DNA of 33,908 nucleotides, from NCBI RefSeq assembly GCF_000337595.1, contig NZ_AOIL01000052.1:1-33908 (forward strand), in the 5' to 3' direction. Source of the stretch: Natrialba taiwanensis DSM 12281. GTDB taxonomy: Archaea > Halobacteriota > Halobacteria > Halobacteriales > Natrialbaceae. Every line of letters starts with the position of its first letter. The stretch's first letter is position 1. The position numbers were made by a program, and so were the translations under genes. The notes beneath the pieces were generated by a model. That model saw nothing but the letters and a program-made list of their open reading frames with translations. It was not told the DNA's origin and made no database searches. Below, in pieces: positions 23,578 through 24,052 of this stretch.

Positions 23578-23608
23578 CCGAGCGACGTTCCGAGCGGGTA
23601 ACAGTAGG

Positions 23609-23614
23609 TATAAG
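23609..23614 (+). promoter_or_regulatory. TATA box of the candidate ncRNA
   Basis: TATAAG within GGTATAAGCC lies 25-30 bp upstream of the first paired base of the cloverleaf-like structure at 23639, the spacing expected for an archaeal transcription start there. Confidence 0.55.
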
Positions 23615-23638
23615 CCGCTATAGATCAACAATTAGACC

Positions 23639-23717
23639 GGAAGCCACACTCCGGAGTGGGGACAACCGCGCAAGCGGAAATGTCCCGGGTGCTAGGCCCA
23701 CCCGAGACGTGGCTTCC
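23639..23717 (+). ncRNA. Candidate structured RNA with cloverleaf-like fold
   Basis: A compact four-helix design can be read. H1 is GGAAGCCAC (23639-23647) with GTGGCTTCC (23709-23717), 9 bp. H2 is ACT/AGT around CCGG, inside the palindrome ACTCCGGAGT. H3 is GGGACA (23659-23664) with TGTCCC (23681-23686), capped by CCGC-GCAA-GCGG, a GNRA tetraloop. H4 is GGGTG (23687-23691) with CACCC (23699-23703), with a 7-nt loop. Five bases (GAGAC) then return to H1. It resembles a tRNA in outline but lacks the canonical T loop, anticodon arm and invariant bases. A TATA box sits at the right distance. The H1 3' strand can alternatively pair with GAAGCCA at 23734-23740, as in a switching leader. I do not recognise it as RNase P, SRP or a known riboswitch; an H/ACA guide is possible. 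Confidence 0.5.
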
Positions 23718-23763
23718 AAGTTTGCACCACTTCGAAGCCATGACCTGGTTCATTCTACCGGGA

Positions 23764-23769
23764 TATAAA
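23764..23769 (+). promoter_or_regulatory. TATA box before the small-protein pair
   Basis: TATAAA lies 22-27 bp before ATG 23791, the geometry of a leaderless transcript that starts at or next to that ATG. The box is flanked by CGGGA and TCCCG, which form a small dyad around it. Confidence 0.5.
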
Positions 23770-23790
23770 CGTCCCGACAGATTGACGAAT

Positions 23791-23889
23791 ATGCGGGAGA
23801 ATCAGTGGCATCCGCCGGGTTTGAATCTGACAAGAATAAGAGAAATACGGCCAACAGCTGCGAAGGATCGAGGTGAGTTCAATGGGTGA
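23791..23889 (+). CDS. Possible leaderless 32-residue protein or leader peptide
   Basis: ATG 23791 opens a 32-codon frame (MRENQWHPPGLNLTRIREIR then PTAAKDRGEFNG) ending TGA 23887-23889. A TATA box sits at leaderless spacing. The peptide is basic, unlike typical haloarchaeal proteins, which weakens the coding case. Its end overlaps the start of the zinc-ribbon gene by 8 bp, so translation through it could couple to or regulate that gene. Confidence 0.35.
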   Translation: MRENQWHPPGLNLTRIREIRPTAAKDRGEFNG

Positions 23890-24052
23890 TCACGATCCAC
23901 CCGATGACGGTGAGCGGCCGAACGTCCTCTCACTGTCTGCCTGTCCGGTGTGCGGCGGGTCGATCACCCGCGTAACCGTTCACAGCCCCTCCAAGGCCGT
24001 TTCGACCCCGTGTGGCTGTCAGTTTCCGCCCGCCGGTCTCGAGTTCGAGTAG
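23882..24052 (+). CDS. Small zinc-ribbon-like protein
   Basis: The 56-residue protein has two cysteine pairs, CPVCGG (21-26) and CGC (44-46), spaced to bind one zinc in a rubredoxin-like knuckle. The N terminus is acidic (MGDHDPPDDGERP) and the end is hydrophobic/acidic. A Shine-Dalgarno-like GAGGTGAG (23870-23877) precedes the ATG at proper distance, which is notable where most transcripts look leaderless and supports its being an internal cistron. Haloarchaea encode many one-domain zinc-finger proteins below 60 residues, several linked to growth or biofilm regulation, but none can be equated with this one. hisI follows 126 bp downstream. Confidence 0.7.
   Translation: MGDHDPPDDGERPNVLSLSACPVCGGSITRVTVHSPSKAVSTPCGCQFPPAGLEFE

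Follow-up and report, generated by a model that had tools for sequence, protein, structure and literature searches.

The locus described here raises the question whether a compact structured RNA, predicted between a TATA box and two small open reading frames of Natrialba taiwanensis DSM 12281, is an RNA gene in its own right or the beginning of a messenger. The window, i.e. the whole stretch of DNA analysed, is 33,908 nucleotides long (contig NZ_AOIL01000052.1). The preliminary description of the locus had proposed a 79-nt unit closed by a 9-bp helix, with a GNRA-capped arm, a 5-bp/7-nt arm and a small palindromic arm, preceded by TATAAG at a suitable spacing. Most of this geometry was recovered: GGAAGCCAC pairs with GTGGCTTCC to close the unit, the TATA box and the 5-bp/7-nt arm (P3) lie where they were expected, and the GCAA-capped arm (23666-23677) sits, in the window copy, within a 6-bp stem (23659-23664/23681-23686). 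The palindromic arm holds for the window copy only, since CTCCGGAG is found in no other of 143 copies, and two Natrialba orthologues carry CTCCAGAG in its place. Rather than being a stand-alone non-coding RNA, the 79-nt unit (23639-23717) forms the 5' end of a structured leader. The design shared by the aligned copies consists of the TATA box, the P1 5' strand, P2, P3, GAGAC, the switch strand and P4, followed by a pre-ATG strand running into the ATG, by P5 and by a small zinc-ribbon gene (Table 1). In the window GAAGCCA (23734-23740) runs on into the ATG, and the start of the zinc-ribbon gene precedes the stop codon of the upstream open reading frame (uORF) by 5 nt, counted to the first base of this stop. 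The neighbour of the window copy is hisI, as it is in two other Natrialba.

Table 1. Parts of the leader and the reading frames behind it, window copy.
Feature	Position	Strand	Remark
TATA box (TATAAG)	23609..23614	+	30 nt 5' of the P1 helix; putative promoter
P1 5' strand GGAAGCCAC	23639..23647	+	transcript probably starts about here
P2 arm (GGGACA/TGTCCC)	23659..23686	+	inner GCAA-capped hairpin in the window copy
P3 arm (GGGTG/CACCC, 7-nt loop)	23687..23703	+	
GAGAC joint	23704..23708	+	directly 5' of the switch strand
Switch strand GTGGCTTCC	23709..23717	+	fold A: 3' side of P1; fold B: 5' side of the start-codon hairpin
P4 stem-loop (AAGT/ACTT)	23718..23733	+	within fold B; variable sequence, self-complementary
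Competing strand GAAGCCATG	23734..23742	+	includes the uORF start codon (23740-23742)
uORF (relay ORF), 49 aa MTWFILPGYKRPDRLTNMRENQWHPPGLNLTRIREIRPTAAKDRGEFNG	23740..23889	+	unannotated; stop overlaps the zinc-ribbon gene start
P5 hairpin CGGGATATAAACGTCCCG	23759..23776	+	inside the uORF
Small acidic zinc-ribbon protein, 56 aa (CPVCG...PCGC)	23882..24052	+	profile A9 match at 23927-24052

Known RNA classes did not account for the element. In Rfam release 15 no family reached the gathering threshold at the locus and none matched 14 relatives, the best sub-threshold match at the locus (E = 0.71) lying on the opposite strand, so that the failure to match known RNAs noted previously is borne out, and the strong Rfam match which had been named beforehand as speaking against novelty was absent from window, locus and relatives. 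A tRNA, already judged not to be of the canonical type, is rejected, as neither ARAGORN nor Rfam detects one at the locus. The suggestion of an H/ACA-type guide found no support either, given the absence of an Rfam match and the fixed position before a start codon. As to a new haloarchaeal ncRNA, the family is indeed one that Rfam does not match, but the RNA runs on into coding sequence. A possible likeness of the P4/GAAGC end to CRISPR repeats was discounted, as P4 differs from copy to copy. No description of the leader was found among the top-ranked open-licence PMC papers, which is no proof of its absence from print.

The element is repeated in the genome of origin and throughout the family. 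A DNA search with 23600-23760 matched 16 of 41 genomes and gave 20 matches within the genome of the window itself. With R1, a covariance model built on 16 short-type copies, 18 strong copies (66 bits or more) were counted in this genome, and matches were obtained in 77 of the 125 genomes of the family and in 22 of its 29 genera, with at least 26 copies in the richest case. Across 342 genomes of the order R1 matched 51 inside the family and, weakly, 13 outside it. Matches of the model on the reverse strand overlap true matches and were excluded from copy counts, and all counts from genome searches are lower bounds, since the searches were pre-filtered and the candidates scored per genome were capped. 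A pattern scan detected at least 110 stretches in genera including Natrialba, Natrinema, Halovivax, Halostagnicola, Halopiger and Natronorubrum, all of which we take to be Natrialbaceae, and in addition in Haloparvum sedimenti. Some copies are plasmid-borne. Virus-borne spread was considered and rejected, three leader patterns having no match in viral contigs and two leader queries none in phage, although other variants could still occur in viruses.

The position of the element with respect to promoter and start codon is constant. Directly 3' of P4, GC(C)ATG is found in 134 of the 143 distinct copies and ACCATG in six, three being without an assigned ATG, which gives a fixed placement before an ATG in 140. 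After removal of sequences more than 90% identical, the 140 copies were reduced to 88, of which 79 have a TATA-like motif (control windows 9/88); in 62 of the 79 it lies 30-31 nt before the P1 5' strand. From CCCGG to GTGGCTTCC the core is almost invariant in Natrialbaceae. A profile built from the leader-linked zinc-ribbon proteins, for which 150 of 189 candidates were scored, identified 14 genes in the genome of origin, and all 14 are downstream of an R1 leader. Of the four remaining leaders of this genome one (L036) precedes another zinc protein, two (C20 and C34) have no four-cysteine ORF and one (C12:198012) looks decayed. The element has a fixed place in the 5' leader of one gene class, as expected of a cis-regulatory RNA.

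The competing pairing, which the preliminary description held to be equally good, was confirmed for the window copy, in which the best folds paired upstream and downstream differ by 0.5 kcal/mol. According to the computed structures the switch strand makes either P1, which closes a three-way junction (fold A), or the start-codon hairpin (fold B), and the two are mutually exclusive. The leader with the start of the uORF (23636-23790) has a fold z of -4.8, with none of 200 shuffles equally stable, and a shorter piece of the leader a z of -4.0. At minimum free energy 23708-23716 is paired with 23734-23742 in this longer stretch (fold B), while 23636-23735 alone folds as A. Fold A is the minimum in 50 of the 88 non-redundant copies, the other 38 having fold B; the median of the energy difference (eA-eB), calculated with standard parameters for 37 °C and not for molar KCl, is -0.6 kcal/mol, and 52 of the 88 are within 3 kcal/mol. 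By computed energy the folds are nearly isoenergetic in Natrialbaceae. When 3' halves were exchanged between the 80 copies sharing the switch strand, the real copies had a narrower spread (3.44) than any of the 30 chimera sets (3.71-4.59), although with 47 of the 80 lying within 3 kcal/mol they fell inside the chimera range of 34-50; shuffling P4 and the pre-ATG strand moved the mean eA-eB to -6.4. The calculated probability of an unpaired AUG drops from 0.53 in fold A to 0.09 in fold B, with A more open in 82/88 copies. At the level of sequence and computed energy there are two exclusive, conserved folds which touch the initiation region.

Fold A is supported by strong covariation in two alignments. 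A4 comprises 103 R1 matches, of which 98 are distinct and three rows are reverse-strand or partial; A8 comprises 56 sequences from chosen places, matched by the second model described below (R2-type), 52 of them from other families and four from Natrialbaceae (L245, L247, L249 and L256). In the 98 distinct rows of A4 two-sided changes occur in 13 of 27 pairs, with 134 cells against 30.8 +/- 4.4 in shuffled alignments (0/500), and sliding the partner strands abolishes the signal. P1 (helix 1) is paired in 96.6% of cells and has two-sided changes in 3/9 pairs, compensatory changes being recognisable by eye in L060, L058 and L077; P2 has them in 4/6 pairs, P3 (helix 3, six pairs in the alignment and five in the window; 99.1% of cells paired) in 3/6 and P5 (helix 4; 95.8%) in 3/6. 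In the 56 rows of A8 the corresponding figures for fold A are 21 of 24 pairs and 266 cells against 78.4 +/- 7.0 (0/500), with a covariation score of 0.531 versus 0.170. In both alignments the compensatory changes, whose absence had been named in advance as an argument against the structure, are abundant and include G-U intermediates. The helices of fold A are compensated as those of a cis-regulatory RNA would be, with the qualification that A4 and A8 favour fold A because both were fitted to its structure.

For fold B the columns are less telling. Within Natrialbaceae they say nothing, because the helix is nearly invariant there, and swapping strands between copies of the family does not separate real from swapped pairs (7.17 against 7.18). 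In A8 the column signal is weak: 19 cells against 12.0 +/- 2.5 shuffled (1/500), five two-sided pairs against 4.4 (241/500), and a higher covariation score after sliding by -1 column. Swaps made sequence by sequence across families are clear. Between switch strand and pre-ATG strand the R2-type set (n = 54, two of the 56 rows being dropped for lack of an ATG) scored 17.3, none of 1000 swaps exceeding 14.6, and with the 22 distinct pre-ATG strands 17.5 against at most 14.7. The R1 matches outside the family (n = 24; the ATG was chosen by eye, and six of 30 loci without an assigned ATG were left out) scored 18.9 against a maximum of 16.0 in 300 swaps, and with 15 distinct strands 18.8 against 16.9 in 1000 swaps. 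By eye, most of these outsiders follow the same pairing rule with other helix sequences: GGTCTTCC pairs with GAAGACC-ATG in L194 and relatives, GCGGTCGTT with AACGAACCGC-ATG in L190, L201 and L214, and CCTCCGTA with TACGGAAGCC-ATG in L198. The upstream, switch and pre-ATG strands change together across families, which supports both folds, B through the per-sequence swaps. P4 is self-complementary beyond chance (mean stem 4.57 versus 3.69 swapped, maximum 3.92 in 200 swaps).

The second covariance model, R2, extended the family of leaders to the order. It matches 95 of 293 genomes of the order and 43 of 87 genera, 31 of the 95 belonging to the family of the window, and 12 of the 28 genomes of the Haladaptatus family; sequences were taken from 40 places in matched genomes. 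In a control set of 196 genomes of the phylum eight matched, all from the same order, the number of genomes from outside the order among the 168 unlisted ones not being given. Both models match some of the same places, e.g. G118:C1 near 1072700. The 1.7 kb surrounding L194 have matches on 13 Haladaptatus plasmids, in most of which a SWIM zinc finger protein is annotated beneath the match, and SWIM or CxxC patterns are present in 26 of 54 R2-type first ORFs. Of the 28 without a zinc pattern two are cut by contig ends, five are shorter than 30 aa and at least four are Cys-rich and were missed (L195, L196, L250 and L276). Much of the core that is invariant in Natrialbaceae is absent from this set, and its helix sequences vary. 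R2-type leaders favour fold A (median -3.5 kcal/mol; 22/54 within 3 kcal/mol). For the AUG itself fold B brings no further burial, the unpaired probability being 0.60 in either fold; over the 7 nt before it the unpaired probability goes from 0.71 in A to 0.20 in B, in 51 of 54 sequences.

R2-type loci (L194-L277) show an imperfect inverted repeat, often ACC...TACGTAG...GGT, which follows the TATA-like box and lies about 26 nt 5' of P1, with 7.25 matching positions in 53 sequences against a maximum of 6.43 in 1000 swaps; it is a possible operator for a DNA-binding regulator. On contig C7 of genome G233 ten matches of at least 26 bits (L190, L201, L207, L212-L216) lie between about 20,000 and 158,000, with at least four different switch-strand sequences, forming a local cluster of diversified switches. 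L244 (G306) and L245 (G004) come from draft genomes of two different families and yet have the same leader sequence, and the Haloferax volcanii plasmid pHV2 (NC_001375.1) matches L245 with 99.8% identity; contamination of a sample may lie behind this.

In Natrialbaceae the start codon at the end of the leader belongs to the uORF and not to the zinc-ribbon gene. A four-cysteine ORF is found downstream in 114 of the 143 copies, 26 others being without a recognised zinc ORF and the remaining three without an ATG. When the nearest start is taken and distances are counted from the first base of the stop of the uORF, 109 of the 114 zinc ORFs begin at -11 to +4 nt (69 at -1, 26 at -5, eight at -8, two at -11 and four at +4), and the other five 79-253 nt away; counting the first ATG only, 91/114 start at the uORF stop. 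The first stops of frames +1 and +2 meet the zinc start in 2/114 and 0/114, and after a 90% identity filter the uORF stop meets it in 70 of 74. Leaving aside 18 of the 88 non-redundant copies, in which no zinc ORF start was recognised between -12 and +4, gives a set of 70, in which the uORF has a median length of 39 aa (range 28-116). Between its start and stop frames +1 and +2 contain a stop in 60/70 and 69/70, frame 0 being open by construction; an unconstrained frame would therefore seldom reach the zinc gene. A Shine-Dalgarno-like motif precedes the uORF in 11/70 and the zinc ORF in 45/70, and the median pI is 11.3 for the uORF and 4.3 for the zinc protein. In 14 orthologous pairs, a small sample in which not all pairs are independent, pN/pS is 1.30 for the uORF versus 0.30 for the zinc protein. 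A function of the uORF peptide was rejected on these figures; the peptide is unconserved, and a ribosome relay is therefore suggested. The arrangement looks like translational coupling, and suggests that the uORF is kept for being translated and not for its product.

Some of the 26 copies in which no zinc ORF was recognised carry variants; in L111, for instance, a zinc ribbon comes after a domain resembling HalOD1 (PF18545, E = 0.0016, a match that does not reach the curated cut-off). Leader and uORF without a zinc ORF behind them were found in L004, L023, L128, L131, L156, L163 and others, the six named being Natribaculum, Natrinema and Halopiger copies with a long uORF.

Taken together, the leader is probably a cis-acting bistable RNA switch at the mRNA 5' end which gates translation initiation, a reading that we hold with fair confidence from the comparison of sequences. 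The wider proposition, that it represents an order-wide archaeal class with at least 20 copies per genome in some lineages, acting in Natrialbaceae through a relay ORF, seems to us only somewhat better than evenly balanced. Judging by the spacing from the TATA box, RNA polymerase would start at P1. P1, P2 and P3 would form first, and fold A would be complete before the competing strand is transcribed. With P1 closing the three-way junction with P2 and P3 the start region downstream would be freer; in fold B the P1 3' strand would re-pair with the pre-ATG strand and bury the initiation region. Since the folds are nearly equal in computed stability in Natrialbaceae, a modest signal could decide between them, and one that holds fold A would be expected to keep the start open. 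In Natrialbaceae the gated start would be that of the relay uORF, from which ribosomes would be passed to the zinc-ribbon gene by translational coupling, a hand-over proposed because the uORF stop overlaps the zinc-ribbon start; at most R2-type loci it would be the start of the regulated gene itself, often a SWIM or CxxC zinc protein. As trigger we would favour a trans-acting protein on the P2/P3 side, then ionic strength or temperature and last a small molecule. Because helix sequences vary across families, a conserved small-molecule pocket is slightly disfavoured, whereas a protein that recognises shape, or direct physical sensing, becomes somewhat more likely.

Three proposals concern what sets such a switch. 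Ribosomal proteins bind their own leaders, and the zinc protein downstream might likewise bind the RNA ahead of it, the two folds being the ON and OFF states; this autoregulation is a tentative idea which we think rather unlikely. It would agree with the leader standing before every zinc-ribbon gene found by the profile (14/14), with the SWIM or CxxC patterns of 26 R2-type first ORFs, and with a weak similarity between the zinc-ribbon profile and one chain of PDB 9fhl, a small zinc finger (E = 0.06); another chain of this entry is named aS34, so that it is presumably an archaeal ribosome. It agrees less well with the 28/54 first ORFs in which the patterns were unmatched, even if at least four are Cys-rich, and with the Natrialba copies C20 and C34, which have the leader and no four-cysteine ORF. 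A ligand-free physical sensor, in which salt or temperature would shift the balance of A and B directly, is quite unlikely in our view. The near-zero median difference and the spread narrower than that of chimeras in Natrialbaceae would suit it, but the energies stem from one temperature and standard-salt parameters, the R2-type set leans to fold A, and the conserved P2/P3 architecture seems more elaborate than a mere thermometer requires. Distinctly unlikely, too, is a riboswitch for a small molecule or a metal ion such as zinc, with the three-way junction as aptamer. Riboswitches usually have a P1 with a switching 3' strand, a multi-branch domain and an expression platform, and the leader shows this layout together with the almost invariant core of Natrialbaceae; that core, however, is largely unshared by the R2-type set with its varying helices, and no Rfam class matched.

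Two further explanations deny that the leader is a switch. A stand-alone small RNA or guide, whose 3' part would precede genes by chance, might account for the compact stable fold with a TATA box of its own, but it is very improbable in view of the ATG at a fixed place in 140/143 copies, the preservation of both switch-strand pairings across families and the conserved P5 hairpin lying within an ORF. Many copies per genome, some of them on plasmids, could also suggest a MITE-like mobile repeat, or DNA operator palindromes instead of a functional RNA. This we consider extremely improbable, as the changes are compensatory with G-U intermediates, the boundaries follow promoter, leader and gene, and the window copy keeps its hisI neighbour in two other Natrialba. 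Of the possibilities raised initially, the switching leader for the small proteins downstream is the one which is well supported. The preliminary description had not noticed the multiple copies, the start codon on the competing strand or the overlap of uORF and zinc-ribbon gene.

Parts of the arrangement have counterparts elsewhere. In Mycobacterium tuberculosis a B12 riboswitch upstream of ppe2 controls a short uORF whose stop overlaps the gene start (AUGA), reinitiation being reported as the main route (PMC11260477). As in the haloarchaeal leader, an RNA switch is combined there with a short uORF overlapping the real gene; ppe2, however, is a single gene of a bacterium with a known ligand, whereas the haloarchaeal leader is archaeal, has many copies per genome and a different layout. 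The Brz/Brb and Bp4/OE2447F pairs of Halobacterium salinarum consist of a small acidic zinc-finger gene and an overlapping small basic ORF, which for OE2447F lies upstream with a 7-bp overlap; transcription of OE2447F starts about 134 nt before its start codon, leaving little or no leader before the 45-codon bp4 ORF (excerpts of PMC3184054). Overlapping small ORFs for an acidic zinc-finger protein and a basic peptide are found here too, but the excerpted text mentions no structured leader, contains 'secondary structure' 0 times and treats the basic peptide as a functional protein (PMC3184054), while selection on the peptide is not seen in the haloarchaeal uORF (pN/pS 1.30 in 14 pairs). The archaeal leaders of the ribosomal proteins S15, eL15 and L4 are likewise archaeal cis-regulatory RNAs found by covariation; as far as the available sections go they precede other genes, and it is by this and by the lack of an Rfam match at the haloarchaeal loci, not by a comparison of structures, that they are set apart (PMC7247131). 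The C(P)XCG small zinc-finger proteins of Haloferax volcanii are of the same general kind as those behind the leader, and in the accessible text 'operon', 'upstream' and 'overlap' occur 0 times each (PMC11241148).

The haloarchaeal leader is best read as a bistable switch of translation start that belongs to a new class, apparently widespread and not described before. If so, few families of cis-regulatory RNA in archaea would be as rich in copies, and one common signal would govern a whole set of small zinc proteins, which suggests a route for their co-regulation. The covariation is strong, the spread in Halobacteriales wide, and the two-state mechanism testable in genetically tractable organisms, Haloferax volcanii carrying on pHV2 the 99.8% identical stretch mentioned above. 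The uORF would be a natural case of a reading frame apparently kept open for ribosomes and not for a peptide.

Some minor observations concern individual copies. The P3 loop (23692-23698 in the window) differs between paralogues of one genome while its stem is almost fixed, and could be a copy-specific address. No intramolecular partner was found for it in six regions tried, and a pseudoknot was rejected, since even for the best region, P4, 16/300 swaps scored at least as high, uncorrected for the six regions. In Natrialba copies such as L039, L043 and L045 GGTAG...CTACC flanks the TATA box, which is not so in the window copy. The draft contigs of L039, L043 and L128 contain, at the leader or zinc gene, short duplications with N at the junction, which are probably assembly artefacts. 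Elsewhere in the window, the sole Rfam match is an intron-containing tRNA at 222-325 on the forward strand (61.2 bits), missed by ARAGORN; it looks like an Arg tRNA, with what appears to be TCT in the anticodon loop, followed by the intron.
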